Origin: Pomacea canaliculata
Lineage: Eukaryota > Mollusca > Gastropoda > Architaenioglossa > Ampullariidae
DNA length: 64,000 nucleotides
Direction: 5' to 3'
Assembly: GCF_003073045.1 (NCBI RefSeq)
Contig: NC_037603.1
Location: forward strand, 17,490,192 to 17,554,191
Part shown: positions 8,101 to 59,859 of the stretch, one piece after another
How positions within the stretch are numbered: position 1 is the stretch's first letter
Layout: every line of letters begins with the position of its first letter
Translations under genes and position numbers: made by a program
The notes under the pieces: model-generated
The model's input: the letters and a program-made list of their open reading frames with translations, nothing else
What the model was told of the DNA's origin: nothing
Databases searched by the model: none

Positions 8101-8710
8101 CTTCTTCCTTTTTTCCATTTCGTTTGACAAAAAACAACAAACAAACAAGGAACATAATTGCGAACCGATTGAATTTTCACCATTAGCCACAATGTGACCG
8201 TCTGTTGCGAGAACAGAAACCAGGTCTGCCTGCAGAAAATGACAACAAGTGAGTCTAGTTAAAAGGCTAGTCTGAGTTAAATGTCAAACTGAAAACTTCG
8301 AAGATGTTCAGAGAACAGAGTCCTGTCCTCACCACCGTACAAGCGCATAGTCCTAACCCTTGGAATAAGGGTTATTTGTGTGTGTGTTTGTGTGTGTGTG
8401 TTTCTCTTTAATAACGTCCCCAAGAAAAAGAAAGCCTGCTTGCAAAAGGAAGATCGGTGCAGTAGACTGAGATACAAAAGCATCGGCAGGTCGCAGGCCA
8501 ATGATGGAAATGAGTGAAGTGTGCTCACTGGCAAGAGCGCCATTGAAGGAGGAAAGTGCGGCTTACTTTGGTGCTGCTCTGTGATTTGCTCGTCATGGGT
8601 GGGTCGTGATGCCATTAGAAGAGTAGGTCTACCCACAACTCTCCAGACAGACCCTCTCCATGGCTACGAGAGGCGTGTTGGTGTTGTCAAGTCCGGAAAA
8701 CTTTGGTTTC
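5170..8710. other. No supported gene; intergenic or intronic
   Basis: Short CA-rich stretches (about 5663-5705), a purine-rich GAAGAA run (about 5940-5990), and a GATGATGA/GAGGA low-complexity run (about 7735-7815) are seen. If the membrane-protein exon at 5.0 kb belongs to a longer gene, part of this could be its introns. Confidence 0.4.
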
Positions 8711-8712
8711 AT

Positions 8713-8927
<215 letters not shown>

Positions 8928-8929
8928 AT

Positions 8930-37726: not shown

Positions 37727-38529
37727 GGAAACCACATGTTAAAAGTGAACAATAAGCACCATTGTTCAAGTAACAAGACTATGGTCTAAAACTGCCGGTG
37801 TTGTCACACTTACTGCCTGTAATCATGAATATGTTGAACATGGAGATGGTGTTTTTGAACTTTAAGTGATATTTCTGTTGCTACTCTCTACACAAGCACT
37901 TGACACTCTCACATTATGCTGCTTCATGTCTACAAGTCCACTGTTATCGCTGCATTTATTGGGGTGCTTGTGTAAGGGTGTGGTCACCAGTGAACATTTT
38001 GGAAACTTCTCTCCTTCATCAACCTTTCAAGACTTTTAGACTTTATAACAGTTGTGTGTTCATGACATGGTCGCAAGTGTACATAAATATCTGAATTGTT
38101 GCTACAAGCAGGATGTAACTGCATAAACAAAGTCTTCCTGTTACTTTCTTGTCACCTGTAACTGATGGTGGTGTTACCTGATAAAACTGTGATGGATTGT
38201 AGATAATGTTTATTCCGCTACACTTAGTACATGCTGCCAACCTAACGTTTCTTTAGTCTGCTTGTACTGCTTCTCCACCTGCTCTGCTGTCCACCCATAT
38301 AATTGTCCTAGAAGCATGCTAGTAAATTTATGCTCATTCATGCACCCTGAACACTCTTCCTATATGACACAAATATCTTAATGCTTAAATAAGTTGCCAG
38401 ACAAGACTTGAGCTTTAAAGAACGGAAAGTCTGATTGTTTTGTTAGCCTGGTTGTTTACTGCCCAGAAACCAGTCATGTCCTTAGAGCCTGGAGAGGCTC
38501 GGCCATTGTTTCAAGATTCTGTTGTGGTT

Positions 38530-38690
38530 TGCCTGGCACTGCACTTGAACCGGATACAGTTCTCCGTATCTCTTTAACAGGTTAAAAGTATATATATATA
38601 TGAAAGGTCCGTCCTCTCTCTTCCATTTTCTCTCTCATTCGTTCTTTTTTCATTTCTATTATTTTTCTCTGGTTTTTCTTTGATCTCGAC
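38530..38690 (-). pseudogene. Decayed copy of MAO exon 13 edge plus flanking intron
   Basis: Plus-strand sequence here (GGATACAGTTCTCCGTATCTC, then TTAACAGGTTAAAAGTATAT, then GAAAGGTCCGTCC) lines up with the start of MAO copy A exon 13 and the end of its upstream intron at about 40,395-40,560 (CCCGTATCTCCCTGCCAGG, then TGAAAAGTATAT, then CAAAGGTCCGTCC). Similarity continues through a pyrimidine-rich tract. The exon part is heavily decayed and carries no usable frame. It has the same orientation as the two MAO genes and lies beyond the 3' end of copy A, so it is probably the remnant of an additional array member. Confidence 0.6.
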
Positions 38691-38916
38691 CTAGGAGTCC
38701 ACAAAGACCCTGCTTTTATTCTGAAAATGTGTTCTTCACGGTGCGTCATTCAGTTGTGTATCGGTTAAATTCCACATCTCGTCTGTATAATTCACAACCG
38801 TCGTGTTCTGGATTATAGAGAACATTGGACATCACAAAGCCCATTCACTCGCATGTGATATATTTAGACTGCAACAAATGTGTGACACAAAGAGGCAAGT
38901 AAATTCAAAAAATACA

Positions 38917-38922
38917 TTTATT
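38917..38922 (-). terminator. Possible poly(A) signal of MAO copy A
   Basis: AATAAA on the minus strand, about 490-600 nt past the alternative stop codons of MAO copy A. No stronger candidate lies between. Confidence 0.3.
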
Positions 38923-39099
38923 TACAGTATTTACACAATAAGAATCCCTCAATAACCCCAGGACATTACTTTTACACCGGTTTACACTAGTCCTCTCTTC
39001 TACATCACAAAATGATCACCAGCAGCCTAGTCAGGAAATACACAACCCTTAATCTATTGAACTTACTAGGGGTTAGGGATAAGCACCAAGTCTGTGACG

Positions 39100-39330
39100 C
39101 TTTGCGAAAGCTGCCATCTAGCAGAACCAGGAGCTTTACCACAGCCAGCTGTCTCTTATACTCACAGAGTATATACAGATGTAGGTTTTTATGTTGATGT
39201 GCGAGACCTGCCATTCAGCAGAACTAGAAGTGTTCACGACAGATTCTTTTACACACAGGTGTTTGTGTGTGTGTAAAAACTGCCATCGAACAGAATTAGG
39301 AGTCTTTATGACAACAAGCTTTCGCAACCG
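39100..39330 (-). repeat. Three spaced copies of a roughly 25-30 bp motif in the MAO copy A 3' UTR
   Basis: On the plus strand the motif reads CTGCCATCTAGCAGAACCAG (about 39110), CTGCCATTCAGCAGAACTAG (about 39209) and CTGCCATCGAACAGAATTAG (about 39281), each followed by GAG- or AAG-type sequence. The copies are 70-100 bp apart with unlike spacers. They fall in the predicted 3' UTR of copy A in antisense orientation as written. Confidence 0.6.
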
Positions 39331-39412
39331 CTTTGTAAAGTAGTAGATGAGGTCTTCTTGGTTCTTTGACGCCCCGTTCCTCCACTGTTTGTGCTAATGT
39401 GGTGTCCGCCGG

Positions 39413-42400
39413 CTAAAGGCGAGGTTTGAACGCCCTCCACATGAGACCAGCGGCAGCGGCGCCACTCAGCAGAGACATGCGCAGAAAGGAAGGAAGAGAC
39501 GGCGCTTGTTTTTCGAGCAGGCTCAGCTCCAGAGGTTTCCCTTGACCTCCTTCAAGAACACCATCCCAAAAACAGAAAGAAAACACATGAGCTTCTACAG
39601 GCATAGAATCGAATACAGCATCTAAGAACAGAGCGTCTAAGTCTTCACCAGTGATGGCGGCTTGAGTCCGAGTGTACATATCATATAACTGTGTTGATTA
39701 TAAGAACAAATGACAGATAAATAAAAGGAAAGCAAAGATAGGCGGAGAGAAAAGTGTCGAGAAGGTATATGTTAAATGTGAGAAAGGATCCTCTCAACAA
39801 CGAACAGACTAGGAGAACATCCCTGTGATAGGAAGCAAAGCAGAAGAGAAGACACCAGCTACATGCAATGAGTGACTACCTCATCCTCTGGCTCGTCTTG
39901 CCAGATGTCGCTGGCATCCACCAGCCCCTTCTCGTGCAGGATCTGCACGTGCAACAAGAGACAAGTCACAACTGAGCAAGATCTGTCTACAACGAGATAA
40001 AGATATTGCCTTGCTTCATTCGCTTACAGAAGCACACAAATCTCATCTGAGAGCGTTCAGAATCATTTCAACCTGTACGGTACACTCACCAAATGCATTT
40101 AGCACTATTGTAAGCAGCGGCGCTCAGTGCCAGGTAAGTAAAAGAGGAATTTCCTGAGGCCATCTACCAACGATTAAAATGTTCATCATAGACTAGCACG
40201 TGCGTTAAATTTTGGAAAGCCAAATTATCAATTAAAAAAATTGTTCTTCTCATGCTCTAGGGTAAAAAAAAAACAAACAAAAAACACAAAAACAAGAAAG
40301 CGCTTTACCTCCCTTGCTGCGCGCTCTCCGGCCTGAATGGCGCCCTCCATGTAGCCCGTCCATTGGCTGGCCGTCTCTGTCCCTGCCCAGTGCACGCGCC
40401 CTACAGGTGCCCGTATCTCCCTGCCAGGTGAAAAGTATATCAAAGGTCCGTCCACCTCTCTGTCGCTTCTCCCCTCTTTCACCCTTTTCTCATCTTTATT
40501 ATTTTCCACAGTTTTTCTTTCATCTGAATTAATTGTGGTAAGTCTCACTAAGAAGCTAGGTCTGAGCTTTTGAATTAAAATACATTAAAATTCATCTTAT
40601 TGCATGAAGTGAATAGTCAAAGAGCTAACTAAAATTTATGCGAAGGAAAATCCGGGTAACTATAGATCGAACAAGAGCGAATAAGCGAGGTAAGGCTCAC
40701 TCGCCAAAAGTAGTTAGAAGCCCTGGTGGCATCATGACAGTGTAGCAGCCCCCTGACCACTCATCCGCAGCCCAGTTCTTCTCTTCATAGTGGACCGGCT
40801 GTAAACAGTCATGGTTAATTAAATTCATAGTGGATTTTATGGACTGAATAGTCCATGTCCCATTTGTAGTCTGATATTCCATATTTGTGTCCTTTAACTC
40901 AATTGGCCATTTATATTCATGGCATTGTCCATCTTTGTCTCTCTCCGTAGGGTATAGACAGGGAGGAGACTGTTTCTGCGGCTCTCTCTCTCACACACAC
41001 CACACTTTCTCTGTTACTTACATGCAGAGCATCGTCTGTCTGGAAGACCTTTGCATATAGTTTACATATCCGTCTCTTTCTTTCTTCCACACTCAGTTCG
41101 CAGAAGGTTCGGGCTCGGTCCGAAAGAACAAAGCTGCAAAGAGAAAGGTAGATTTTTTGAGACATCATGAAACAGAGGTGCTATACCTACCGGATGCTTA
41201 GACAAGATCAACAGGCTACAATGGCGAGGATATGTTCTACAAGACATTATGAGAAAAAGGAGAACTGTTCAATGCAGTATAAAGACACCGACAATATTAC
41301 TGAAAAGTTACGATATACAAATATACAATATTACTGACAAATTACAATAGTTAAAAGGCGTCCTGATATCGGTTTCGTGTCTAGGTCCACTCTTTAAGAA
41401 AACAGTTTTGTTTTCTGTTGCTTGGTTAGCTGAAGGGCATTAAGGGGCAAGTCTGACATACCCCACGAGGGCCGGGTGCGAGCCGTCATGCAACACGTGG
41501 TCATACGTGCTGGCTACCAGGCCTTCGTCGTCATCAATGGCCGCAGCCCCGGACATGCCTGCACATCAGTAAGGTCACGGGTCAGCGTGCTGACAGTATG
41601 TGATGGCAATACTTGTGAATAGAACTGACTGTATGAATAGATATGATGGACACTTTAGAGCTGACCATATGTTAGGAGAGCTGATAGTATGAGTGGTTGG
41701 CGCTTATAGTCTGGAACTGACAATGGGTGTGAGAATTGCCGACAGAATGAGCAGCTTGCTTCAACTTGTTACTAGAACTATCTAGAAAATAAGCTCTCAA
41801 TCTCGACTCAGTGATACAAAGAAAACTATTTTACAATTACCGAGTTACCGAGAAGTCTCTGAGAACGATCACCATGTGCCCTCTGACCCAGAAGAGCGTC
41901 TTGCAGTTTTAGTGACTTAGAGAACACCTACCCTTGTGTCTCCAGAATGGTGTTTTGTAGTAGTGAAAGGTTTTGATGACGGAGCCCATAGGAAGTCGCT
42001 GCAGCATCTGATTTCTCCGAGCCGGAAGTGGCGGTGACCACGTGATCCGAGTCTGCAGGGGCGGCGCTAGCGCCACGATACAGTGAGAGGCCTGGACAAG
42101 CAACCCATGTCCGTTAAGATCACACGGCAGTGTGGTGACGAGAAGACTAGCAATAATCATTAAAGTTATCGTGTTTACAGGCAGGCATCAACCTAGAGAA
42201 GCCCTAGTTGCTGTCAGGCTCATCTCAGACAAATACACTAAACAAGAAAATGTACAAACAGAATACTTGCGAACCGATACTTTCACACTGTTCAGTTACC
42301 AAAGTCACATTTAATGTCACGTGATTCCACAGATTGTCTCACCTGATACACATTTCCACAGGTGTCGTACACACTCACACCACCAGACGTCTGCTCGATT

Positions 42401-43565
42401 TTGCACACCGGTCGGTTGAGAAGAACTTTGTCTGAGAAAAATAGAGAAGAAAAACATCGTATGTTAATGGGTCTAGCAATATTCTTCGTTACAATTCACT
42501 GATATTTATGCCTTCTCTGTTTGTATGACAATGTGGTTTGTTTGTACTTATCATTACCTTACTTACCTAATCCAATCTTTTTCATCAGCCCCTCGCTTAT
42601 TTGTTGCGTCCCGCCGATCAATTTCCTCTCCTGCGAAACGCGAATTTCGAAACTAAGGAATATCCATCTAAAGCCATTAATTTTTTTTAAACTTTCCTGA
42701 TTTTTTTTTTTTTACTTTTTGAAAACAAGGATTCTAGCAAAATTATTGCTCAAAGAGAAGTTAGTGTTAAGCTGAACAGACCTTAGTATTAAGTTAATAA
42801 CTGACTGACTGAGTGAGTGAGTGAGTGAGTGGGTGAGTGAGTGAGTGACTGACTGACTGACTGACTGATGTGGGTGAGAGACAAAAGGCAGGGTATGAGT
42901 GGATATTTGATGAAGTAAGATTAGATGTATGAAACCCATCAGCAAACCGCGGGCTAGTAAGTAACCCGGGAGGTAAAGTCAACTAAAAGGCGGGTGGGCG
43001 TGCCAACTCCACCCCTCGCACCTGAGCCCCGTGTGCTGTGCCGTTCATCATCAGCGGCCCTCCAGCAGACGCCAGATACCACAGCAACCACAGCAACGAC
43101 ACTTCGTACGCCTCTGAGGTGACGTTGACGTTGACAAACTCTCGCATGGCTTCCATGGCGCCTCTAGACAAACCACAAGCTTTCGAAATAAACATCATGG
43201 CTCGTCTTCTATTGTCATCAGGCAAGTAGTTCAAATGTACGTACACACCTGAATATAACACACCTGTTGAATATGATTTTTTTTCAAAGCAAATGCCGCA
43301 AAACATTGTATAGACCAGGTACTAAAGAAAAAAGAAGGATTTGTGGACGAGTTCTTCACATATCCCAAAGTTCCACGCGCGTGCGTGAGTGACCGTGTGT
43401 GCTCGCGAGGTTGTGTGTGTGCGTGTACCTGTTAATGCCAACCGATATTAGTTCTAGTATCTACTTACTTAGTCCACACGTGTTGATCAAGAAACTGCTG
43501 TACTGTCATGGTGTCCCATTCTTTGGCACGCCGTGCGGTCCATGGAGCCTGCACTGGGACCTAAG

Positions 43566-43628
<63 letters not shown>

Positions 43629-44451
43629 TTGAAAACGTTCTTGTCTTAAAAAAACTCTTTGTCTTAGGTATCAGAGTTAAAAATCTGGCGGTCACTTATT
43701 CTCCTACTTTGGCCTCAACATTTGGAATGCCTTACCTGTCTCCCCGTATAGTCTAGGCTGGAAACTTATCTCTGTCTAACTACCTATGATATCCTGCCTA
43801 TCGCCTGACTGTTCCTTTTCCCGCATTCTTCATCGCCGCACTCCTTCACACCCTTGGCAGTCCAGTGTTGTACACAACATGATATTTTCACAATGACAAG
43901 GATAGTATTCACCATGATAATTGCACAATCCATAGACCTCCGGACCCTAAAGAACAGACCTACTTTATCGGGATGGAATTTTCTAGTGGTCCGAGACGTT
44001 CTGTGACAACAGTCCCACAGAAGTGTTCAGACATGACCTCTATACACAGAGTCCAGACGAAGTATGGAGACCTGACCTCTCTACACATGCTGTCCAACAG
44101 CCGGACGACATTGTTGAGGTCCAGCCAGGACAGGAAGCCCCCGGTGGGTGGGAAAAGTCCATCTTGGTAGCGTTTCTTGATCCCATGCTGTGGACAGAAG
44201 AAACAAACTTTCTTTCAAATATGTTAGGGTTTGGTAAATCACCTATCTGTTCCTTCTTCACTGCTAACTCAGTCACCCAGACAGCAAAGACTGAGAGATT
44301 GGACGACTCGGGTCTTAAAGACTCCAACTCATTACCCAGGGTACTACATCACGTCACTGACTGCACGTCCTCTCCACCCGCAATCAGATGGTGAAGCCTA
44401 TGTCGAGCATAACCAAATGTCGCCAATTAAATTTCTTTACAATAACGTCTT

Positions 44452-44515
<64 letters not shown>

Positions 44516-46292
44516 TTTCTCTTGCACAACCGATTGTAAACTTTCGCTCTGTCTATATCACGTCACTATTACCCACACAGGACGACACACATGTAAACTT
44601 TCAGATCCTTACTTACACCTGACGTCACCTGTTACATACCCTGACCACGTACCTGGCGATACACAATCAGATCCTGCTCGTCGTACGTGCGGTACGTCTT
44701 CACGCCGAACTCGCGCGCCAGGCGCAGCAGGCGATTCTGGGTAGGCCCGACGTAAGCAGCTCCCAAATCCAGGTATCCTACCTTGTCGTTCTGAATAGTC
44801 AAACATTAGAACATAGACACATTGCACGTGTAGAGGAATTGCAAACTAGGCTCTGTGAAAAAAACTTTTTATAGCAAACAGACAAACGGACAAATGGTAG
44901 TATGCAATGTTATGGTATGCACGCACGCACAAGCACGGAGGGAGAGAGAAGCAATATATACATGCCTCGGGGAAGGGGGGAGCTACTGGGGACCCAGTGA
45001 GAAGGGGACCGGCAGTGGGGTCGCCTAGTAACAGGATGGGGGTGCCTGTCCATAAAATACCTCTTGATTTCAGTTCAGTTCAGAGCGTGATAAGAGGTGG
45101 TGTCGTTTTGTACCAGCCTTTTCTTGCCATGTGTGATCTCATTGACCCATTCATTTATCTTTTCTTACACAAACGTGAATACAGGTAACTGTTTTTAAGT
45201 TTGGGTATTGGAAGTGAAGCCAGATATCCACCTATCTATTCATAGCTGACCGAGCAGCACTTAGTCCCAATAGAGTCGCACTGTTAGGAGAAAGAACATG
45301 TCCCCCACCGCTCACCTCAATGACAACCTGCTCAGTGCACTTTACGATACAAAAATGGAAGAATGAGAGATTTATAACAGCCTACAGACACATGCAGCTA
45401 AAGCCCCGTGTTATCAGGTGAACAAGAAACAGCGAAGGACAAGTACACTTCTCCACCCCGTCACTCCTCTTATTTTAAAAGATAGACATCGAAATGACTA
45501 CACATGTGATCACGTGACCAAGAAAATATCAGTAAGTGTATTAACCTACGATAAGACTGGAAACTTAATCTTAGGGTAGACCTTATCTGACTTGCCACAG
45601 GTGCGAAATTCCATAATTTATTTTAAAAACTTGGCAGGAAAGGGAGCGACAAGAAACAATTCTGAGGCCAACTGATTAGAAGTGGAGAGAATACCTACAC
45701 GTAACGTGTAAGTCCGACCTCCGACCCTGTCGCGTGCCTCCAGCACCAGGACGCTCTGGCCTTGCTCCGCCAGCACGCGCGCTGCAGACAGACCTGCAAA
45801 CAAGAAACTGTTCTGTACCATATACATCCGTCTGTACGAGCCGAGCTACTCGCTGATGATGAGAGAAACAAGCCTAACATGAATATGACGACCCTCTAGT
45901 GATTATTGTAATATTATTTCATTATATGACAATGGAGAGTCATTTGATGGCTATAAACGACTATTTGATAGCAAAAATTCTTTTTCAATAATACATGATG
46001 GTAATTAAACTTCATTAACGTTACCGAGTGCGATAGTTTAATGACTGGTGAAAGGTGATGATCATATGATGACCGGTGTTGATGACGGTGTTGGCCTCCT
46101 CTACATTCATGGTCCCGGATGAACTGTCATATCACTTACTTGAGTCCAACTGTGGTTATACCACAACCTTCGACATTTAGGTTTGTGGACAGCAGTTTGT
46201 GTTGTTGTCTCGAGCAAAACAAAACAAAGGTTGAGATGGAGCCTCTTACCGCTAAGCCCAGCCCCCACTACAACCACGTCCAGCGCCTCCAT
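39413..46292 (-). CDS. Monoamine-oxidase-like flavin amine oxidase, copy A
   Basis: Fifteen exons on the minus strand: 46292-46250, 45793-45699, 44790-44653, 44187-44077, 43560-43469, 43163-43022, 42630-42567, 42431-42343, 42091-41932, 41558-41462, 41133-41022, 40798-40701, 40420-40309, 39942-39880, 39549-39413. Exons 1-14 join without a break into 472 aa. The product matches animal MAO-A/B: FAD-binding [53 protein letters not shown]; Lys in GSVIK (about residue 298), covalent-FAD Cys399 in SGGCYT with Tyr400, AGTETA and Tyr437 of the aromatic cage. MAO deaminates amines such as serotonin and dopamine on the outer mitochondrial membrane. Oddity: the last exon is one base short; with its only good acceptor it reads EVKGNLWS then stop (39523-39525), while the usual anchor tail ([20 protein letters not shown]) stays open in the next frame to 39413. 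Confidence 0.9.
43565..43627. repeat. (AATC)n microsatellite abutting the MAO-A exon 5 acceptor
   Basis: About 15 perfect AATC units. On the gene strand they read (GATT)n and end a few bases before the CTTAG acceptor of exon 5 (exon starts at 43560), so the microsatellite takes the place of the normal pyrimidine tract and branch-site region. Confidence 0.95.
43650..43930 (+). mobile_element. Possible LINE ORF2 tail fragment in MAO-A intron 4
   Basis: Plus-strand frames give [13 protein letters not shown] and then, in another frame, [13 protein letters not shown]. This resembles the C-terminal 'SYFGPTVWNSLP...LKTHLF' signature of CR1-like elements. It is short and frame-broken, and is antisense to the MAO gene. 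Confidence 0.35.
44452..44514. repeat. (AAC)n microsatellite in MAO-A intron 3
   Basis: About 21 AAC units in an unbroken run between exons 3 and 4 of copy A. Confidence 0.95.
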
Positions 46293-46299
46293 CAGTCGA

Positions 46300-49200
46300 G
46301 TCGTTGAGCCCCTTGGTCACGTGAATGGTTTCTCTCTGTCACTTTTCCACTTTGCACCACTGGCTCGCCTAGTCTGACCCTGAGAGATATCGAGGACAAA
46401 AGGCAGGTGGTTTTTTTCCAAACACTTTGGCGGGTCAGGTGGGGGAATCTGCTGGGGACTAGTCCAGGTCGCTACTTATATCAGGCAGACAGGCTCGCGA
46501 GCGCGCGGTCACACAGGCCCGCATACACGCAGACGCGCACACACTATCAGAATCAACAAGATAAATATGTTGTTTGTTTGATAAGAAAGAAATGTGACCA
46601 AGACTCTTACAGGCTTGCGAGATGTAACGGCTACATAAACTGCTATTTATAGCCATTCACGTCATGTCTACCCAGACTAATTATACATTTCTATGCTACA
46701 GGAGTAATGTTCTCACGGTCCGTAACAAATTATTTGATGTACACTCCATATGCAGGACATTCCATCATGCTATCATCCTTGATTCAGCAATAAATAAGAA
46801 CAGTAGTTAATGTGCATATGAATGTTAGTAAGATGTTACATGACTAAGTCTATAAATATTGTAAACAAGGACAACACAGGTTGTGGAATCAGAACACATT
46901 AGTCACTTCTACACAGTGTTGTCCAATGTAAAGAATGTAAGCTTTCATTGTAAGCAGCTAAGCGACTATGCTCAGTATATCAACTATTTAGTAGTCTCAA
47001 TATTCATTTCCTTATTAATTTTAATTAAAAGTTGATTTTAAAAAACACGTGGCACACTTCTTTACTTAGCAGCTAGCTTAATAAATAAACTTTACCAAAA
47101 GGAGAAATACAAGGATATAAACGAAAGAATTAGGATTTGATCATCTTAAATTATAAATATAATTATAGAAAAAATCGTAAAATTTAGAATGGATGCACAG
47201 GGTTCGCTTGTGAACCTTGTGTTGATTTATCTCATTTTGAGTTTCATCTTCACTTCATAGCAGCAATGTCATCTGATAGCAACAGTACAAAATTATGTGT
47301 GTGTTCATAATTCCTGAGAACTGAAAATATAAAGCGATGGCCACTACCCTGACCAGGTGGTCCACCTGCTGAAAGATGGTAATAATTGTAGGTGGTTTGA
47401 TCACATCGAGTACATAGTCTTGTGACTAAAACTCTGTCTTCTGACATCAGATACTTACTAATATTTTGGTGTCTATATCAGAGGGTAATGCTTTTGTGTA
47501 ATTACAGTATTGTAATTAAAATATTTGTGATCTATTAATCTCTTCAAAATTCGAGCTGAACCAGATGTCTGAAACTTTTTGAAGGGTTAACACTAAGGCA
47601 GTTCAATTTTACATAGGTCAAAGTTCGCATAAAGAAACGCTACAAAATACCTGACATTGTTTTTGTCTTGTCATCTGCTGGACAGGTTGCTAGCTTTCAA
47701 TATAATCGTAATTTTTACTAAATTTCTAGTATAAATAAGAACTCGTGATGATCAATTACTTATGTCAAACAAATGCTATCATCACACAGGCTATCATCGC
47801 CCCATTGTGACAAGTTATGGACATGATGACAATGTCAAAGTTCACACGGATGTAGTCCAACAACTCCAAATGACAGATTGGTTAGTAATTGTCATTGCTA
47901 AGGCAGCAAGTCTGTAACCATGGTTTATTATGAGCCTCATATGTAACAGGATGTAGCCCAACACACAGGCTACATAAGTATTTCTGTCTCTTATCTCAGC
48001 TTTCATCAAGTAGGACAGTGCGACCTTTCACATTTCGGTAACGTTGGCATCACTGCGCTCGTTAGTTTGTCAGCACGCCCTCGGGGCACTACAGGAGTGT
48101 GGACACTCCCAGCTTAGTGCCAGACACTTTACACCCGGGGTGTGTAGCAGGACAAGATACATAGTTCTGCGAGTATGTTTATTATGTTGTGCACAACACA
48201 ATGTGTCTATATAGGGGTGTGTCCACGGGTAGACGTTAAGAAGTTCTTGGAGAAGGTCTATTAGTACAAGAAATGTCTTTTGGCAAATCTTAGTACAAGA
48301 TACATAGTTCTGTATGTCTATCGGTGCAAGTTTTTGTCTGACTAATGCCAGAGCTTATCTGACGAAATTGTGCGCGCAGACAAACACACATATTGAGATA
48401 AAGACATAAACCTATACATTCTCTCTCTCTCTGGAAATATGGGGAAATGTAGACACACAGATACATGGGGGAAAGATGCAAACAGGTATGTGGAGAACAG
48501 AAATACAGATATATAGGGACGGATGCACACAAGGACACTGTGGACAAGCTTTTATTATAAAACATTTCCTTCATTCGGTATCTTGGTATCATTCCTTGTG
48601 CGTCTGAGACGGTTTCTGTCGTCCTTGTGCTCTATGGGAAAGATAAGAAATATGTAAGGTGAAAAGAAGAAAGTGTGTTTGTGTGTGTGTGTGGTTTGTA
48701 GGGTTGCGTCGTCTGTCACTGTGTGTTCCTTGCCCTGACAACAAGTCGTGTACACAATCTGCATAAAGACAAGGCGCACAATTTATCTCTTTCTTTGCTC
48801 CATCGCAAAAGATTGTCGATGTGTATGCGTGTGTGTGTGTGTATGCATGCTGTGTATGTGTGTGTATGCTCTGTGTGTGTGTGCACGCGCGCTTGTGTGT
48901 ATTTAGAAAAGAAATGGGGTATGCAAAGACACGAAGACAGGTCTGTCATTTTCTACAGATGATTGTCCAAGAAACCTGTATTCATGGTGAATAGCATTTG
49001 ACTGCCCTAGATAATGTCATAATAGAGGATACCAGAGATTCATCCCCGCATACGCTCTGCATTGTGAGTGGCTTACCGTGTCTAGTAATGGCATTTACAC
49101 TGGAGTCCCAAACGTTTCATACACTGCCTGTTGCTTTTCCTGATAAATCAAATCAACCATAAGTTGACTGGCCAGGGAAAAAAATTTCCAGACAAGCTCA

Positions 49201-50770
49201 GGTGAACCTTGAAGTCGTGATGCTGTATGGGTGCTTGACTACTGTTTGACTACACCACAGGACTTGATAGTAAGACATGATATTGTAGAATTTTGTTTTC
49301 ATAGTTTTTTTTTTTTTTAAAGATGCCTGCTTACTTCTCGGACAACCTTAGTCCTAAATATTTTGAAAGTCTATTTTAGTCTCTTGTTTGTCTTATGATG
49401 AAGTCTACATGTTGCTCTGCAGAGGTTGTTAGATAATGATGTAATAGTAGTAATGTTAGTAGAATCAGTTTATTTTTACAACATTTATCCGAGCTTTTGT
49501 CATCATCATGATCATTTAACAGCAGTACAACAACTATTCTCAGCAACATCAAACTATCATCACCACCAGCCACAACCTTAAACTTTTCTGTCTTCTTCAA
49601 TCAAGGAGGACAGACAAGTGAAACTTCTGACTTCTCATCCTCTCAGGGAGTCACTCTATCATGTCCCTTGGCCAAATCGGGACACAAAGGGATTTTTAAC
49701 AAACACGAATATGTCTTTGTCAGCAATACATTCGCTTGTCTCTTCTGTCTCGCTTGTATGGTTCACTGTTCTTAAACTTGGTGGCGGGTTAGGCCCGTTA
49801 GGCTCATTTCTGCTTAGATTCTTTTCTAAAGCTGCTGATTGTTTCTCTACCAGCAATAAATTTAATTTGTACTAATTGCACAATTTTTGTTTGCTATAAA
49901 AATTTCAACGTTTAGCTACTCCGAGCTTTAAAAAAGGTTTTGAAACCAGTGTCGGACCTGCTGAAGATCCTGGGCAACACGAGCCTGCTCAGGCCTTCAT
50001 CAGGATACAGCCTAGTGTCTGCATTGCCTAGCAACACCATCCTGCACCAGATAACAAACTTGCATCACAAGGAAGCTCACATCATTTGTTATAAATAGAC
50101 TAAGGTGGTTTATTCTGATCAAGGAACAAAAACTTTAGGGTTAGCAGTCGGTCGACATTTTTCATTTTTTCACTCATTTGTCTTTGGACGACAGCTGTAG
50201 ACACTGTAGACACTGTAGACAGACAGCTGCACCGCCTCTCGAGGTGAAGATGTGATACAAAGGAAAACTCACTCATCACAAAGTTCACAAATATCAGTAC
50301 AACTGTCATGGCTGTAACGATATATTGTTCATGACACTTGGGTCACTTCATGGACATACCATGGCTTTCACGATCTTTCATGGATTCTTACAGCCACCAA
50401 CACCGCACCACCACCGATTACTACACTCTTATCATAAAGTCCCATTGAAGTTTGCTCTACAGGCCTTTGTGCCGCCATCACACAATGGTTGTTGATTATC
50501 TTCTAGCAGATGCATGATATTTTTAAAATAAATGAACATAGAAGCAGCTTTAAAAATGCAACTCTGATAGTACTTGATGTCTCTGTCTCTCTTCTTCACA
50601 TGGACTAAAGTCTGTAGAGTGATTCTGTCTCGCACTTGATGTCTCCCTCCAGTTGGCATCGTCTCCATGGCGGCGGCAGCAATGGCGGCTTTCTCTACAC
50701 GTGATCTCTGTAGTGCAGGAACAGGAAGCAGTAGTTCGCCTTCACTCAAGCCTGCGTGCAGTTCACTCAG
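46300..50770. other. Interval between the two MAO genes; no supported gene
   Basis: This holds the 5' flank of copy A and the 3' flank of copy B. I see a CT/GA run (about 48,420-48,432), (TG)-rich stretches (48,675-48,695 and 48,828-48,900), and unassigned short frames: 65 aa on the minus strand at 47,250-47,447, overlapping 85- and 65-aa frames at 49,618-49,875, and 105 aa at 50,432-50,749 just past the stop of copy B, which is likely 3' UTR. None has splice or family support. Confidence 0.4.
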
Positions 50771-50777
50771 ATGGAAG

Positions 50778-53700
50778 TCAGTGACGTAGGAATGTCCACA
50801 AAATGCCGGTTGTGACCGCAGAGGTCACCACGACAATGCTCAGGAATGCCGGAAGTGACGGAGCTAGTTTTTCGAGCCGCGACAGCTCCATTGGTTGAGC
50901 TCTCACGTCCTTGAAATGAATAACAAAACAATCAATAGTTTGATATACAGGGGTGTATAGAATGAAAGAAAAATGGAAAGGAAAAAAAAAAAGAAAAAAG
51001 AAGGCAACAAAAATATACGCACGTGCATGGAAATAACGTACACACACACACGATATCTCTCACTCACACTCACACTCACACTCACACTCACACTCACACT
51101 CACACACACAGCTAAAGAAACATGTGCGGGAAGACAACCCCAAGCTACCAACAACAGCAACTACCTCGTCCTCCTGCTCGTCTTGCCAGATGTCGCTGGC
51201 AGCCACCAGCCCCTTCTCGTGCAGGATCTGCACGTGCAACAAGACGGACGACATATTAGTACAAACTGTGTCTTCACCTGGAAGGCTGGCATCGACATTT
51301 TGTAAATTAGAGATTGTTCCGCTAGTTGTTGGAGCATGTCGATCCCTCGTGACCACTGAACACAACGTGTAATATAACCTATACAATGGGAACATAATGT
51401 GAATGCTCAGAATCTTGAAGTAAAATTGTCGGTGTTTGTTTGTTTATTTTTTTCTGATTACAGATACGCAAGAGTTCAGACAATAAGCAGGTGGCATGAA
51501 AAACAAAACCACTAAAACACATTGCTACAACTGTATGTTTACTACTCTAAGGGTAGCCTCATGTCAGACCCCAGACAATCCCATGTAAACTTGAGTATCT
51601 CTGTCTTATCGGTGGATGGGAGGGGCTGTCCTTGCCCTTCTACCACTACTTGTAATGTCTCTAGTGGAATACACTTGCCTGTAAGAATAGTTGCAGTATA
51701 CCAACTTGATTTATAGTTGTGTTCCGGTGGGAAAAGGTTTGTGTTTGTTTTTTTTTTATTTCAACCTGTCATTTCCATTTCTGAAAGTGTCAAGCTGAAC
51801 AACGCAGGTATGTGGTCAGGCAACGTTTGGAAACTGCTAAACACCTGAGGGTATTTTTTTATCTATCTCTGACCTCACCTTGTCTTAAATCGCCGGAAGT
51901 ATGGCCCCAGACAGCAAAGTTCCCAATTCGAAAGCATTAGACGGTTATCTATCCAATCACATGTGGCAGTGAGATTGTCAGATGTCAAAGATACTAAATT
52001 TATTCAATAATTAACATTGAGGACAACAAAAATGTAACTTTCCTGAACTAAGTCATTTCAGTTTTATAGAAAAAAAAATTGACTTCGTTCTCTAAAGGGA
52101 GGGGAAAAAAGGAACGAGAAGCTGCTTTACCTCCCTTGCTGCGCGCTCTCCGGCCTGAATGGCGCCCTCCATGTAGCCCGTCCATTGGCTGGCCGTCTCT
52201 GTCCCAGCCCAGTGCACGCGCCCTACAGGTGCCCGTATCTCCCTGTCAAGGTCGGATAAAAAAGATGGACGGTTAGCTTTTTATCATTCCATGTTTTTCG
52301 CGCAGATTTAAGCCTTTGTGGAATGGTATACCAAACCTTAGCGGCGAACTTGTAAATACAGACATCCCTCCAGTCAACTGTAGCTGTAACTTTCTACTGA
52401 TGAAAAGCCAGATCCTGTAAACCTGTCGGTTGATGATAGTAAAAAAATCCAAAATCTAATGCTTTTTGCACGCGCATGTTATTGTATGTAAATAATGAGC
52501 TTGGTAACCGTAGAAGGCAAGTAGCGAGGTGCGTATGTCGCTGGGCAGGACACTACAAACGTAGAGCTCGAGTCATCTGCCAGACATGAGTACATCAGCC
52601 AGCTTTGCAGAAAAGATTGAAGAGTTCGCAAAAATCGTTTCCTCTTACTAATTGTTTGCTCAAACAAAGAGGGCGGTCCGGTGGCGCAACGGTTAGCACC
52701 TGTCATATACAGTGATGATTGGGTGTCCTGGGTTCAGCTCTTGTCTCGGACACGTTGGTTTTTTTTTTCTCCTGTGTGTGGCATCTGTTTACCGGGATAT
52801 AGCCTTAGTTTCTGGCTCGGCGTCTCCACCTTCCTTGCTCAAACAAACAATTAACATGCGAGGAACTCAAAGCATCCAGGATGTCCTGATGTAGCCGTGC
52901 GACCTGCACGGGAAAGGTGAAGGCCGCTTCACTAAGGTGAGGAAGTGACATCAAGGTCGTGGCTGTGGTCTCACTCATCATCAGAGTATGATGACAGGGG
53001 GAGGTAACTGACGGTACTTTACAGGATGTGATGGTACTTTTACCATGCAATGTAGAGATAGCTCGAGTGCGCGACTGTTAGTACAGAATAAATAGATATC
53101 AGTATCACGTGCAGGAGGAACCTGCTCCACATTTCGTGCTTGAAATGCGAGACCATCGAATATAAATACGAAAGAAATACACTGGTAGACTACGATTATT
53201 TTGCTTAATACCGGAAGCAGGAAAGCTTCACTCACTCGCCGAAGATGGTTAGAAGCCCTGGCGGCATCATAACAGTGTAGCAGCCCCCTGACCATTCGTC
53301 CGCAGCCCAGTTCTTCTCTTCATAGTGGACCGGCTGTAAACAGTCATGTCATGTTTACTGACACATTGTGGATAGGCTGTGGATAGTGCATGTCAGGTTT
53401 ACTAACACTCAAACCTATCTTCTTGTCTGACTCCCGCACGCAAACCAACTGACCGCATCCCCACCACCACCACCACCATCATTATCACCACCACCACACA
53501 ACCACCATCACCTCCACCACCACCACATACAGAGAGAGAGAAAGAGATTTACTCAGGTTTACTTACTTCAAGCGCCTCCTCTGACTGGAAGACCTTAGCA
53601 TAAAGTTCACATATCTGTCTCTTCCTCTCCTCCACCCTCATGTCACCACAAGCGCGCGCACGGTCCGCGAGCACGAAGCTGCACAGAGACGGTGAGAAGT

Positions 53701-56700
53701 CGCACCAGTGGTCTACAAACATCCAACTTCTACAGTCCTCTACACCATGTCCACGTAGTCATAGTCTTCTACGGTTCAACGGTTATCTACATACGTCGAC
53801 CAGTTGTCTTCTTGGTGGTCAACAAACATGATTCAGTAACCCACATGGTGATCTACAAACATCGCGCAATGGTGTAGATAGTGATCCATCAACATCATGG
53901 TCTTCTACATGGTGATCCATCAACATCTTAGTCTTCTACATGGTGATCCATCAACATCATGGTCTTCTACATGGTGATCCATCAACATCAATCAGTGTCC
54001 TGTGTGATGCATCTTAGACATTTATATGATGATCCACAACATCATCCAGTCATCTAAATGATAATCCAGAAACATCACAGCAATCTACAAGCTGTACTAG
54101 CAGCTGCTCGATGACAAAAGCATCTGTGATAGACTGTAAAACACTGACGATGAAATGTGTAAAATAATTTAATTGATGTTAATGTAGGAGGTGCAGACAG
54201 AAGACGATGGTCAGGGTGACTGTTGTGGTATAGAGAAAGCAGTAGAAGTGTGGTAGATGTCCTTTCCTAGAGACAGCAATCCGTTCACCTACCCCATGAG
54301 TGCGGGATGCGAGCCGTCGTGTTGCACGTGGTCCAGTGTGATGGACACCAGCTCTTCCTCATCATAAATAAAGGCTGAGCCACACAGACCTGCGACAAAC
54401 CGGAAGTGTGAGTTTAGTTGGAAAGTAATTAGCAAATAAATAAACTTACATATGAAAGAGAATTGAATATTTTGCAGATAATTCGATATATTATGTCGAC
54501 ATCATGAACAGTAGTGTTTGTTGCTCGGCGTCCAACCTGGAGATTAAAAAAAAATGAAGGTGGTAGCTTATTTCCTGAGACATTCACTGTCTCCTTGTGT
54601 CTCTGAAACAGCATTTTGTAGTAGACCAAGGTTTTCATGACAGCTCGAGTACCTACCTTTGTGTCTCCAAAACGGTGTCTTGTAGTAGACGAAGGTTTTG
54701 ATGACGGAACCCATGGGAAGGCGCTGCAGCATCTGGTTTCTGCGAGCCGGAAGTGATGGCAACCACGTGATCCGAGTCTGCAGAGGCGGCGCTAGCGCCA
54801 CAATACAGTGAGAGGCCTGTAGAAACTGAAACTGTTGATTACTTTGACAACATGTGGCGTGCAGCTGTAGTGTAATTATCTGATGGGAGACAGACTAGGA
54901 TGGAGACTATGGTCAGTGATGACACACTCAAGGGAGACTATCGTCAGAGGATGACACACTCAAGGGAGACTATCGTCAGTGATGGCACACTCAATGGAGA
55001 CTATCGTCAGTGATGACACACTCAAGGGAGACTATCGCCATGGAATGACACACTCAAGGGAGATTATTATCAGTGAGTGACAATTATGTTATGGTGATAT
55101 AATTAGCACACTGACAGACACTGACCTGATACTCGTGACCTCCCATGTCGTATATACTGACACCTGTACCTTTCTGTTCGATCTTACACACTTGGGTGCT
55201 CAAAAGAACTTTTTCTGAAAAAGCAGACAAAAGCGAAATTATATTTCTATCAAGGTAAAAAATAAATTAGACAGAGAGCTCGTACGACACACATAAATAT
55301 TATTAGATAACGAACATGTCTGTCGCATGCGAGATGACAGTAATTCAACCGTTGCCTTCACCTAAATCTGTCATGGCCATAGCCTTGTACTCCATGGAAA
55401 CTATCTATGAAGATAAAATATTAGTCTGATTAACAAATGCAATTAATTTGGGGCCCGGTAAGTCTGTGTATTTTGGTAGCTGCGGGCATTCTTATTACAC
55501 CTGTAGTTTGAGGGCTTCCAGACGTGAACTATGCAAATATAATACAACTTTGACCTGCTGAGGTCACAAGCAGATAAGAAAGTTGACCTTGATTTGCACT
55601 TTTATTTACTACATGGAGAGTATGAAATACAGTTGTGGAGAATGTCGGTGGTCTAATCGTGTTGTCGGTGTCGTTGTGAAGCGACAGCTCTACATTCAGC
55701 TCAAGTGGATTGTGCACTAACATATAAACTGAACCATAAACTGAAACTGTTAATATGAACAAATATACTAGAAGCTGGTTCTATCCATCTCGTACTCTCT
55801 CTTTCCACTCTCCTGATATTTTCTATCTCTACTCTTATCTCTCTCTCTCCCTGCGTGTAGAGTGAATGTGAGTGAAGAATGAAATGAGATTTAGACTGAC
55901 ATGTAAAATGTTTTGATTGCCATGAATAAAAGTGTGTTTGCTTAGCTTGGAAAAATAAACATCTAAGTTGACAAACATCACGTGATACACTGAGAGGCGC
56001 TGCAGGTATCCTGCTGTCTCTGGGAAGAACATGCATCCATTGAAAGTTTCTCAAATGTTTATAACTTTGATTTCTGAAGCCATCTCACTGCACCTTTCTT
56101 ACATATGTCCCTCAACTTTCTTACTTTCACTTTTCGGGTTTCTCACCTGTTCCTCTCGACTGTCTTACCTTTGCCGATCGTTTGAACAAGACCTTCACTG
56201 ATCTGCTGCGAACCCCCGATGAACTTTCTCTCCTGCAAAGATTTGAAATGGTAATCTCATATTATTCTATCTGGAGCTTCTTTGCATCCCCATCTTTCAC
56301 CGAATCTTGGTTCGGCTTTTCTTTAATTTTGGGGCAGCCACAAAGTGTGTAAACTTGAGCATACAGGATTCTGTCATCCATCCCTCTTTTCCCTAAGTCT
56401 TCCTCCTCCATAAGTCTCGTGTGTTGCTTATTGTTATGTTCCATTACTCACAAGTCTACCTCTTGAGTAATTCAAGTTTTCGTCACAACCATCCCTGTAC
56501 ACACCATTAAATTTTAGTCACAAGCATGACTCCCTCCTTCACATCTTTATATCACATAAACCCCCTTACTAAATTTTACACATCATAATGGCTTTTGTGA
56601 CACGAAACTTCATCTTCTTACTTCTCATTTCGCAATGAACACCGTTAACATCCACCCGTATATGTTCTTTAAAAAAAAAAATTTGTATTGAGCATTGTAG

Positions 56701-59338
56701 TTTAGAGGATTTATTGCAGTGTCATCAGCACCCAACACAACCCATTACACTGCGACAAGAAACCTTGTGTTACCTGTCCTCCATTGGAGGTTGCGAAAAT
56801 CCTGAGCGGTCCTCCAGCCGACGCCAGGTACCACAGGAACCACAGCAACGACACCTCGTGCGGCTCGGACGTGACGTTGACGTTGACGTAAGCTTTCATC
56901 GTCTCTAAGGCGCTTCTGGTTCATCGCAATGAGAGCGATGTCATGGTGGAGAGGCGACCACAGACAGAAAGTAAACTGTTATTCAGTGTTATTATATACG
57001 GAAATAGATTGTGTCTGTGTACCTGTCTGTTTGTTTTCAAGTCTGATTTATATGTGTGTGTGAGAGAGAGAGAGAGAATCACTGTAACTGTCACTGTATC
57101 TGCCTGTGTGTGTGTGTGTTTATGTTTATGTATATATGTACGTAGATGTGTAGATATTCGTATATGTGATCACCGACTACGAAATGAGTAGCCCAGGGCA
57201 GTTTCGTAGTAAAGGCCCAAAAGGTCAATTAGGGTCAACTTTGTCTCGTTGGACTTGCACATTACAAACCTTTATAACTTACTCAGTCTTAGGAGAACAT
57301 AAATATGTTTACCGTGTCCACAGGTGAGCATCCAGGAACTGTTGCACAGTCATCGTGTCCCATTCTCTTGCTCGCGGGCTTTCCACGGAGCCTGCACAGG
57401 CACCTGAGACAAAGAGTACATCTTTATAATGTCACGTGCTTACCTTAACCGCACTTAGTACATAAAGCTTTATAGTAAGTGTCACGGCTTACCTTTTGCA
57501 CTTAGTACATACTTCCCCTTTTCATACCTGGCCCACACTTTGTCATGCTCCATGTCTGCCATACTCTCTATCGCACAAATGACATTTGCTTTACCTTCAT
57601 GCTTTGCTCATCTTCAGTTTCTCTTACAATGGAAAAGAGTCAACTTTTAAATGCTTATCCAAAAACAAACCGTAACCCTAGTTATCCACCCGAAACTAAG
57701 ATCGAGGACCGACCTCTCTACACATGCTGTCCAGCAGCCGCACCATGTTGTTGAGGTCCAGCCAGGACAGGAAGCTGCCTGTGGGCGGGAAGATGCCATC
57801 CTTGTACCGCTTACTGACTCCATTCTGTGGACAAACATAGTCTCACCATTGTTATGTGAAATGTTCGTCCTTTCCTATCTCCTTTTCTGTCTCTATCTTC
57901 TCCGTTCTTTCTCTCTCTTTTTTTTTCAATGGGTACCCCACGAAATCACCAAGAGATAACGAAAGTTCAAACGCGGCATCAAAATCTGACGAAATTTGAG
58001 CTTGTTGATTTTTATTTATAGCCATTGAAATGAATTTGACTACAGTGATGTAAGGTACCAGTCACTTATACTCTGTCCATCGGAGAAAGGTCATTTTAGG
58101 TAGAAGAGATTTTTGGAGAAGGCTTTGGTTAAAGAAGCAGGTTTGGGTGGGTTAACGTACCCGGCGACAGACTACGTCCTCCCTCTCGTGCGTGCAGTAC
58201 GTCTTCACGCCGTACTCGCGCGCCAGGCGCAGTAACCGGTTCTGGGTAGGTCCCACGTACCCAGCTCCCAAATCCAAATGTCCTACCTTCTCGTTCTAGA
58301 CAGGTGAAGTAAATAAGTGAGAATATGTAATAGGTGGGATGTCTATAATAATTTTCTTTGTAATAAGTGCATTTTGTGTGTAATAGGTTCTTGTTGTCTG
58401 TAATAAATATACTTCTGTCAATAAGTGCAATCAGTGTTGTCTGTAATAAGCGCACTCTGAATATTTCATCAAAATGATGCAAGACAATAAACACCTCAGT
58501 AGTGTTTATGCATCGTGCAGTGTGTATGTATATACATATCCTATTTACTTAATGTTGACAGTACTATGCTATGTAATTTAGAACAAGATTGATTTATAAT
58601 AACAGCTTATGATAATCCCTTAACTTCTTGGCGATTTGTCTATTTATTATTTATTTTTTTAGTTGCCAGCCTTGAGGAGAAGAAAACAAGCGTTCACCCA
58701 CATGTATTGTGTAGGTCCGACCTCCGACCCTGTCACGTGCCTCCAGCACCAGGACGCTTTGACCTTGTTCTACAAGCACGCGCGGCAGACAGACCTGTAA
58801 ACAAAGACTGGATTCACACAGCAATAACAAAACACTATGTTCTTATTCTTAAAACGAGAAATAAAATGGATGTATGTCTTTTGTTCTTTTGGGCATTAAG
58901 ATAATGTGAGCAAAGGGAGCTCATCATGACGATGACAAGAACCGAAGGAAACAAGTCATGTACATAATACAAAACTGTATATAACTGTAGATATGTGTGT
59001 GATTATACAACTAGCGACATTCAACGAAGTAAATACACTTTAATGAAACTTTCTACTATTTTCAATTCACAGAGAAGTTTGAAACTTTTATACGGGTGTA
59101 ATAAGTGCAAACACACACACACACCAAGCGGCTTTTTCCACTTCATAGGAAACAGGAAAGTGGAAATAAGTAATACTTCAATAAAGAAAGCAATCCTAGT
59201 GCCTGATATTTTGCTTTCTTAATATCTGAATCATCCTGTCAACGTTAATATGTAATCTGTGGGGATGTGTGACTATCTCTCACCGCTGAGCCCAGCTCCC
59301 ACAATGACCACATCAACGGTTGTCTGCTCTTTGCTCAT
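50778..59338 (-). CDS. Monoamine-oxidase-like flavin amine oxidase, copy B (frame broken in two exons)
   Basis: The same 15-exon plan as copy A: 59338-59284, 58794-58702, 58295-58161, 57824-57714, 57403-57313, 56915-56774, 56232-56169, 55214-55126, 54816-54657, 54389-54293, 53678-53567, 53333-53236, 52242-52131, 51227-51165, 50909-50778. All splice sites are GT-AG. Key parts are kept: start [39 protein letters not shown], Lys in GSVIK, the Cys in [22 protein letters not shown], and an intact C-terminal anchor ([20 protein letters not shown]). Exon 2 is 2 nt shorter and exon 5 is 1 nt shorter than in copy A, each putting the reading out of frame; exon 3 is one codon shorter, which is harmless. 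Either this is a young pseudogene or the sequence carries indel errors. Coding quality elsewhere argues for recent or false breaks. If active it would be an outer-mitochondrial-membrane amine oxidase. Confidence 0.85.
51058..51112. repeat. (CACTCA)n microsatellite in MAO-B intron 14
   Basis: About eight units of CACTCA followed by CACACACA, between exon 14 and the anchor exon of copy B. Confidence 0.9.
52656..52847 (+). mobile_element. tRNA-derived SINE in MAO-B intron 12
   Basis: An A-box-like GTGGCGCAACGGTTAGCACC at about 52,680 and a B-box-like GGGTTCAGCTCTTGTC at about 52,732 are followed by a T-run and an unrelated tail. The element is bounded by an exact 13-bp direct repeat, TTGCTCAAACAAA (52656-52668 and 52835-52847). 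The body differs from the SINE at 18.2 kb, so this is a second family or a distant subfamily. Confidence 0.8.
53456..53530. repeat. CCA/CCACCAT low-complexity run in MAO-B intron 11
   Basis: Imperfect CCA triplets with TCATTATCA interruptions next to exon 11. Confidence 0.85.
53880..53995. repeat. 31-bp tandem repeat in MAO-B intron 10
   Basis: About four copies of GATCCATCAACATCATGGTC + TTCTACATGGT, with more diverged copies spreading over 53,700-54,080 (GTGGTCTACAAACATC and similar). Confidence 0.88.
54589..54645 (-). pseudogene. Tandem duplicate of the 3' end of MAO-B exon 9 (pseudo-exon)
   Basis: The segment encodes [17 protein letters not shown] on the minus strand, against [17 protein letters not shown] at the end of exon 9, which lies only about 12 nt upstream in gene direction (donor at 54656). 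It is a tandem duplication of roughly 60-70 nt across the exon-intron border. The second copy has lost its donor (AAGGAGAC where exon 9 has AAAGGTAG), so splicing most likely still uses the first. Confidence 0.8.
54900..55080. repeat. Roughly 31-bp tandem repeat in MAO-B intron 8
   Basis: Five to six copies of GGGAGACTATCGTCAGTGAT + GACACACTCAA, several nearly identical, with variants such as CGCCATGGA. A second minisatellite of similar period lies about 1 kb away in intron 10. Confidence 0.9.
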
Positions 59339-59689
59339 GGTGGTCCGTTAACGATGATGGCGAGGATCAAAGTTCTTTTCCCTGTGTAATGGACGGCTGG
59401 TTGTCTAGAAACTCTCTCTGTCTTGACCTGAAAGCAGCTTGGTCATGTTATATTGTTTCCAGTGGTCATTCACTATTATCTACACATCTACAGACAGGAG
59501 TGCAGCACACACAAGAAAATGTCATTTCTAAATTTATTCCGTATTCTGGTCACCTCGGGGCACTGATTCAAGTACTGTGTCTTTGATGTCTTTTGAAAAT
59601 TAATTTATTAATTCTTTTTAATTCGTGTGAGTTTTTTTCGACCAACTTTTTCTCCTTGGTGACCATGGACGTGTATTTAGTTCGTGTTG

Positions 59690-59850
59690 GCGACAGTCTC
59701 TGCAGCTGGTGACACCAACAGGGGACAAGGTTCACAGACTGGCTTGCACGTGCATGGTCAGTGTCCGTCACAAACTGTCGGAGGTCGGACCTACACAATA
59801 TACGTGGTGAACATTCTGTTTTGTTTTCTTCGTCTGACAACTAAAATTTA
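59690..59850 (+). pseudogene. Inverted fossil of MAO exon 2 and its downstream intron
   Basis: On the plus strand GTCGGAGGTCGGACCTACAC + AATATACGTGGTGAAC matches the minus-strand end of copy B exon 2 and its donor (GTCGGAGGTCGGACCTACAC + AATACATGTGGGTGAAC, about 58,690-58,725). Likeness continues into the intron (GTTTTCTTCGTCTGACAACT against GTTTTCTTCTCCTCAAGGCT + GGCAACT). The exon's 5' half is strongly decayed. It is closer to copy B than copy A and lies about 350 bp beyond the start of copy B, in opposite orientation. Confidence 0.7.
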
Positions 59851-59859
59851 AATAGTTTG

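Follow-up and report, generated by a model that had tools for sequence, protein, structure and literature searches.

Monoamine oxidase (MAO) degrades serotonin- and dopamine-like signals, and the two vertebrate enzymes, MAO A and MAO B, are encoded by adjacent duplicate genes of 15 exons each. The snail studied here depends on serotonin and dopamine for feeding, locomotion and reproduction. Homology that is limited to part of a duplicated gene is known from other clusters: a portion of the published account of the Fc-gamma receptor cluster describes homology of two paralogues confined to some exons, with gene conversion deduced from exon-wise trees (PMC6563257). Here we describe two tandem MAO-type genes, copies A and B, in the snail Pomacea canaliculata, together with three small exon-bearing pieces that lie around and within them. 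The DNA analysed is a window of 64,000 nt on contig NC_037603.1 (C14), positions 17490192-17554191, and all coordinates below are those within the window. We consider it probable that tandem duplication followed by exon-limited gene conversion, with the pieces as ordinary micro-duplications, jointly explains what is seen.

When the region from 36 to 62 kb was compared with itself (E <= 1e-3), 20 matches were obtained, 13 of which pair the two copies and are all centred on exons; the other seven are local duplications or repeats. The genes lie head to tail on the minus strand, copy A at 46292-39413 and copy B at 59338-50778, in splice-site models whose exon borders were placed by hand, and a GT...AG model is possible at all 14 introns in each copy. 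The initial annotation, made from the letters of this DNA, had proposed two near-complete MAO-like genes of 15 exons each, arranged in tandem on the minus strand. Its gene naming was correct and its coordinates good, as the splice-site models and the matches to PF01593 and to MAO chains (given below) bear out. Each copy does have its 15 exons, but as assembled copy B has a broken frame in exon 2 and again in exon 5, and copy A in exon 15, and to that extent "near-complete" says too much. The exons are as follows.

Copy A exon 1, 46250..46292, minus strand: start codon, beginning of the GxGxxG flavin adenine dinucleotide (FAD) motif, donor GTAAGA; splice-site model
Copy A exon 2, 45699..45793, minus strand: self-match and splice model
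Copy A exon 3, 44653..44790, minus strand: self-match and splice model
Copy A exon 4, 44077..44187, minus strand: self-match and splice model
Copy A exon 5, 43469..43560, minus strand: self-match and splice model
Copy A exon 6, 43022..43163, minus strand: first substrate-gate residue, Asn; splice model and alignment
Copy A exon 7, 42567..42630, minus strand: splice model
Copy A exon 8, 42343..42431, minus strand: self-match and splice model
Copy A exon 9, 41932..42091, minus strand: conserved Lys; self-match, splice model and alignment
Copy A exon 10, 41462..41558, minus strand: second gate residue, Ser; self-match, splice model and alignment
Copy A exon 11, 41022..41133, minus strand: self-match and splice model
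Copy A exon 12, 40701..40798, minus strand: SGGCY with the Cys for covalent FAD, identity to copy B 90/98; splice model
Copy A exon 13, 40309..40420, minus strand: 111/112 identical to copy B; splice model and genome DNA search
Copy A exon 14, 39880..39942, minus strand: 59/63 identical to copy B; splice model
Copy A exon 15, 39413..39549, minus strand: C-terminal tail, reading frame lost with the acceptor preceding 39549 and kept with 39526 as first exon base
Copy B exon 1, 59284..59338, minus strand: splice model
Copy B exon 2, 58702..58794, minus strand: 2 bp shorter than in A, frame broken; splice model
Copy B exon 3, 58161..58295, minus strand: splice model
Copy B exon 4, 57714..57824, minus strand: splice model
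Copy B exon 5, 57313..57403, minus strand: 1 bp shorter than in A, frame broken; splice model
Copy B exon 6, 56774..56915, minus strand: Phe at the gate site, shared with the MAO-A chain; splice model and alignment
Copy B exon 7, 56169..56232, minus strand: splice model
Copy B exon 8, 55126..55214, minus strand: splice model
Copy B exon 9, 54657..54816, minus strand: splice model
Copy B exon 10, 54293..54389, minus strand: Ile at the gate site, shared with the MAO-A chain; splice model and alignment
Copy B exon 11, 53567..53678, minus strand: splice model
Copy B exon 12, 53236..53333, minus strand: SGGCY; splice model
Copy B exon 13, 52131..52242, minus strand: splice model and genome DNA search
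Copy B exon 14, 51165..51227, minus strand: splice model
Copy B exon 15, 50778..50909, minus strand: C-terminal tail, hydrophobic by eye, in frame; splice model

Intron 8 of copy B also holds direct repeats at 54900-55082, with offsets of about 63, 94 and 125 bp.

The degree to which the two copies agree varies from exon to exon. Identity is 66% in exon 8 and 67% in exon 7, whereas exon 12 reaches 92%, exon 13 99% and exon 14 94%; for exons 1 and 15, which differ in length, the figure is 55-56%. Exon 13 matches at 111/112 positions although its flanking introns do not align. At fourfold degenerate sites, counted with exon 15 read in the copy B frame, the copies differ at 75/204 sites overall, at 4/42 in exons 12-14 (1/21 in exon 13) and at 71/162 in the remaining exons (Fisher P 2.3e-5). 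None of 10,000 permutations reached the observed heterogeneity of fourfold differences among exons, and the longest identical run was reached by 101/10,000. The pair thus shows patchy, unexpectedly low synonymous divergence, which is one mark of interlocus gene conversion. Past the splice sites the intron flanks do not align between the copies. The exceptions are the acceptor sides of exons 12 and 14, where the last 15 bases of the intron are identical at 15/15 positions, as against 5-11/15 at the 12 other acceptors. Further upstream, exons 12 and 14 still have 21 and 22 of 45 positions in common, versus 10-18 at the same 12 acceptors. The identity of the adjoining 15 bases suggests that the template of any exchange was DNA and not spliced messenger RNA (mRNA). 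Across exons, amino-acid differences and fourfold differences rise together (Spearman 0.63, P 0.011, n = 15 exons), as is expected if conversion requires similarity.

Exons 1-14 of copy A cover the whole of the Pfam family PF01593 (Amino_oxidase; 1-443/443, E 3.7e-77), and their best relatives among solved structures are MAO-B and MAO-A, with E 7e-159 for the MAO-B chain. For copy B the query consisted of exons 6-15, and the best match was MAO-A (E 4e-118). No NCBIfam family exceeded its cut-off among the 25 of 62 listed. The covalent-flavin motif SGGCY is found in both copies and aligns with the MAO-A and MAO-B chains, as do VIK and GYMEG, and the conserved Lys and two Tyr are present in both copies. 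We take the Cys of SGGCY to be the site of covalent FAD attachment, and the Lys and the two Tyr of the aromatic cage to be active-site residues. The N-terminal FAD-binding region is intact in copy A and interrupted in copy B by the exon 2 frame break; the C-terminal tail, hydrophobic by eye and a candidate membrane anchor, is in frame in exon 15 of B and, in A, only via another acceptor. By their sequence matches, flavin motif and active-site residues both copies are of the MAO type, and amine-oxidising activity at the outer mitochondrial membrane would be predicted.

The residues at the substrate gate are Phe/Ile in MAO-A and Ile/Tyr in MAO-B. Copy B carries Phe/Ile at these sites, in exons 6 and 10, matching MAO-A chain 2z5x, and copy A carries Asn/Ser; the two proteins differ at 16/47 residues in exon 6 and at 12/31 in exon 10. 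Given the different gate residues and the diverged gate exons, it is plausible that A and B differ in substrate range, which hinges on copy B yielding a protein.

We suggest the following history. An old tandem duplication of a 15-exon MAO gene would have been followed by divergence of the introns past alignment, and the exons most conserved in protein (12-14 above all, then 9 and 2) would have kept exchanging via short, DNA-level gene conversion and so been homogenised. Conversion would have been halted by the diverged introns. The substrate-cavity exons 6, 7, 8, 10 and 11 would have drifted apart, copy B keeping an MAO-A-like gate and copy A having other residues at the two gate positions. 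Direct or inverted micro-duplications that happened to catch exon edges would account for the pieces at 38.5, 54.6 and 59.8 kb. A bolder reading, which we regard as doubtful, is that the pair forms a modular enzyme system in which conversion re-supplies the shared catalytic and flavin exons 12-14, 9 and 2 to both copies as the introns and the gate exons 6 and 10 diverge, producing one MAO-A-type enzyme and one of new specificity, both built round the same catalytic core. If the mosaic is real, it would be a compact natural case of exchange limited to those exons that must stay the same and absent where the enzymes differ, and it would provide two snail MAOs, differing in their gate residues, whose properties can be tested against each other.

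Several observations weigh against duplication with exon-limited conversion. Exons 12-14 were chosen after the identities had been seen, and for that reason the test that permutes across every exon is the fairer one; the fourfold sites in each exon are few, at 5-27. Fourfold differences are also low in exons 3 (4/20), 8 (2/6) and 6 (7/20), the proteins of which differ at 12/44, 11/29 and 16/47 residues, respectively, and the link with protein conservation is weakened because these exons are alike at fourfold sites yet unlike in protein. Exon 13 has just 112 bp, which is short for a conversion tract, and its upstream intron flank, at 7/15, gives no sign of a tract past the exon. With two sequences compared and no outgroup DNA, the low synonymous divergence in exons 12-14 could reflect constraint on RNA or DNA. 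Finally, the divergence of copy B may not concern a working enzyme as assembled, because of its frame breaks.

As assembled, copy B ends early, with stops in frame between exon 2 (2 bp short) and exon 5 (1 bp short). Seven in-frame splice alternatives were found, each of which alters the FAD region, and none leaves it whole. In copy A, exon 15 is in frame if splicing uses an AG acceptor that lies 23 bp deeper in the exon (first base 39526), at a cost of about 8 residues before the tail; an acceptor at 39688 is also in frame, with an insertion. Conservation was counted in exons 6-14 at sites where the MAO-A and MAO-B chains agree: 125 are kept in both copies, 17 are changed in A only and 6 in B only. 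One gate site is doubtful, since the MAO-B chain used presumably carries a mutant residue there, and without it the count is 16 (A) versus 6 (B), P 0.052. Copy B, which has more frame breaks, would thus be, if anything, the better conserved protein, a hint that the breaks arose recently, are polymorphic or are errors. According to part of the description of a published P. canaliculata assembly, probably the one used here, PacBio reads from a highly heterozygous animal were polished by Pilon with Illumina reads (PMC6129957). Because of that polishing we do not term the breaks errors outright.

It is somewhat unlikely, in our judgement, that the breaks, and possibly the near-identical exons too, are artefacts of assembly or polishing, produced by long-read errors and by short reads polished onto the wrong copy. 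The read types and the heterozygosity just described would allow it, and outside the breaks both copies have open, conserved frames, which would be odd for long-dead genes. However, that description also gives a 652-fold depth for the Illumina reads, and 98.0% of the core genes were found (PMC6129957). Polishing, moreover, alters single bases and small indels, and it seems unlikely to have rewritten many exon positions amid unique introns.

The main rival for the mosaic itself is constraint on synonymous sites, by which an RNA or DNA signal within exons 12-14, such as one for splicing or an overlapping transcript, fixes third positions with no exchange between the copies. Exon 13 has its single fourfold difference though its flanks are unalignable, and the introns could have been replaced piecemeal. 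Codon constraint would not predict the 15/15 identical intron bases that precede exons 12 and 14, although a signal for splicing might do so, and no Rfam family reached its gathering score in the window. We consider constraint unlikely as the source of the mosaic.

The three small pieces have the following positions.

Piece 1, 38555..38686, minus strand: local duplicate of copy A intron 12 with 19 bp of exon 13, source 40402-40525, 97/134 identical
Piece 2, 54595..54641, minus strand: 3' end of exon 9 of copy B duplicated in tandem, offset by 64 bp, 39/47 identical
Piece 3, 59777..59846, plus strand: last part of exon 2 and first part of intron 2 of copy B, duplicated in inverted orientation, source 58657-58728, 60/73 identical

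The initial annotation had listed an exon 13 piece with intron at 38.53 kb, a tandem piece of exon 9 at 54.6 kb and an inverted exon 2 piece with intron at 59.7 kb. Self-alignment of 36-62 kb returned a match at all three places, and none of 1000 dinucleotide shuffles of each reached the real score (64.4, 50.0 and 64.4 bits, versus 33.7, 31.0 and 34.6 for the best shuffle). Piece 1 is real but less exonic than had been proposed: its share of exon 13 is 40402-40420 (19 bp) only and the remainder is intron 12 of copy A, which it matches clearly, its best match in copy B being merely 18 bp long (15/18). Piece 2 is indeed in tandem, but its 47-bp alignment lies wholly within exon 9 of copy B and holds no intron, so that the intron content attributed to all the pieces applies to the first and third; it is closer to B by a slight margin (39/47, versus 38/49 for A). 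Piece 3 agrees with its first description: its source in copy B comprises 27 bp from exon 2 and 45 bp from intron 2. The piece is located 5' of exon 1 of B, and 73 bp of it are matched in copy B versus 20 bp in exon 2 of copy A. The view that the pieces derive from DNA and not from mRNA holds, because two of the three contain intron and the third adjoins its source exon in tandem at a 64-bp offset. The distances from piece to source run from 64 bp to 1.9 kb.

An origin of the pieces from a transposable element was rejected, as there was no evidence for it in the genome, of which 440,159,624 bases in 24 contigs were searched. The queries 38500-38720 and 59700-59900 each found themselves and one further place, a 43-bp match on contig C6 (88%) for the former and the copy B source for the latter, and the source stretch 40400-40600 found itself only. 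These DNA searches miss diverged copies (the 72% source of piece 1 was missed), and their queries did not include the exon 9 piece.

The background of local duplication was taken from 20 stretches of 10 kb on five contigs, evenly placed and not random, one of them with 100 N. A complexity filter of 0.5 removed 53843-53990 (0.34) and retained the match at 54.9 kb (0.50). The controls gave 21 clusters in 200 kb, with 0-4 per stretch, and the MAO region, which was searched uncut and its clusters counted by eye, gave 4 in 22 kb (38.5, 54.6, 54.9 and 58.7/59.8 kb). The Poisson P is about 0.2 for at least 4 clusters, and 0.08 for at least 5 when 53.8 kb, a low-complexity match, is included; cutting the controls at 10 kb loses straddling pairs, a bias in favour of an excess in the MAO region. 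Exon debris above the local duplication background was not seen in this comparison (4/22 kb versus 21/200 kb), in which control clusters were counted irrespective of exon overlap. On this evidence the pieces are ordinary local micro-duplications, presumably functionless, and they show just the usual turnover of this snail's DNA.

The initial annotation had also held that this locus repeatedly gained and lost MAO parts. Three significant exon-bearing pieces within 22 kb are in keeping with such a hot spot, but given 4 clusters here against 21 in the 20 control stretches the claim is unsupported: the duplication rate is not clearly above background, the exon content of the pieces is merely 19-47 bp, and the genome holds no further close MAO copy in a protein search with copy A (26 matches, 40 candidates scored), 23 of the matches being at this locus. 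We therefore regard a hot spot as very unlikely. Nor was any support found in this analysis for the suggestion that the pieces could matter for amine signalling, on which the broken frames and the divergence of the gate exons would bear more.

Least probable of all, and very unlikely to our mind, is conversion by a reverse-transcribed, spliced copy that overwrote exons 12-14 of the other gene. These exons are adjacent and all alike, with tracts that stop near exon edges, and their downstream flanks (5-7/10, then 12-17/50) are not more similar than the flanks of the remaining exons. On the acceptor side, however, the identity extends 15 bp into intron 11 and into intron 13, sequence that would be missing from a spliced template, and the 26 protein matches include no intronless close copy.

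Elsewhere in the genome, a search with exon 13 DNA found copies A and B only. An off-locus protein match on contig C1 at 37.23 Mb, with 26% identity, is another amine oxidase. C1 also carries a distant MAO-like tandem pair at 22.860 and 22.873 Mb; one stretch has NGGCF replacing SGGCY, and the other has a tail that is hydrophobic by eye. This pair was rejected as part of the array described here. A candidate third copy on C14 at 16.78 Mb was rejected as well: of two stretches examined there, one has a single N-terminal match (45%, about 50 residues) and the other none at E < 1, and the candidate was taken as another flavin enzyme. By title and abstract we found no paper on a molluscan MAO duplication, which is not to claim that none is in print.

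The rest of the window contains a non-long-terminal-repeat retrotransposon at 22607-27314 (plus strand), with a zinc-knuckle open reading frame and, spread over several frames, domains of an endonuclease, a reverse transcriptase and an RNase H. Direct and inverted repeats of about 90 bp lie at 29.6-29.8, 31.8-31.9 and 32.8 kb (29645-32835), with no MAO-gene match reported. An open frame of 184 aa at 10619-11173 (minus strand) has no Pfam match at E 0.01; by eye we take it to resemble a CARD-type domain, which Pfam did not confirm. A long GT/CA microsatellite at 8700-8950 gives open frames of Val-Cys and Thr-His repeats on both strands.

The MAO locus can be set beside three known systems. Like local micro-duplications, which are short, direct or inverted and within about 2 kb, the pieces have lengths of 47-134 bp, similar distances, both orientations and a rate similar to that of the controls; they differ in overlapping exon edges, which is how they drew attention. 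The exon-limited homology likewise recalls the Fc-gamma receptor cluster, with the difference that conversion in the snail is deduced from two sequences, without trees. With vertebrate MAO A and B the snail copies share a whole-length match, SGGCY, the conserved Lys, the two active-site Tyr and 15 exons. In contrast, the snail pair stands head to tail, its identity is exon-limited, and its gates are Asn/Ser in copy A and the MAO-A-type Phe/Ile in copy B. The snail and vertebrate duplications are presumed to be independent, and we consider this tandem MAO pair, with its exon-limited homogenisation and puzzling frame breaks, to be a new example of known processes.

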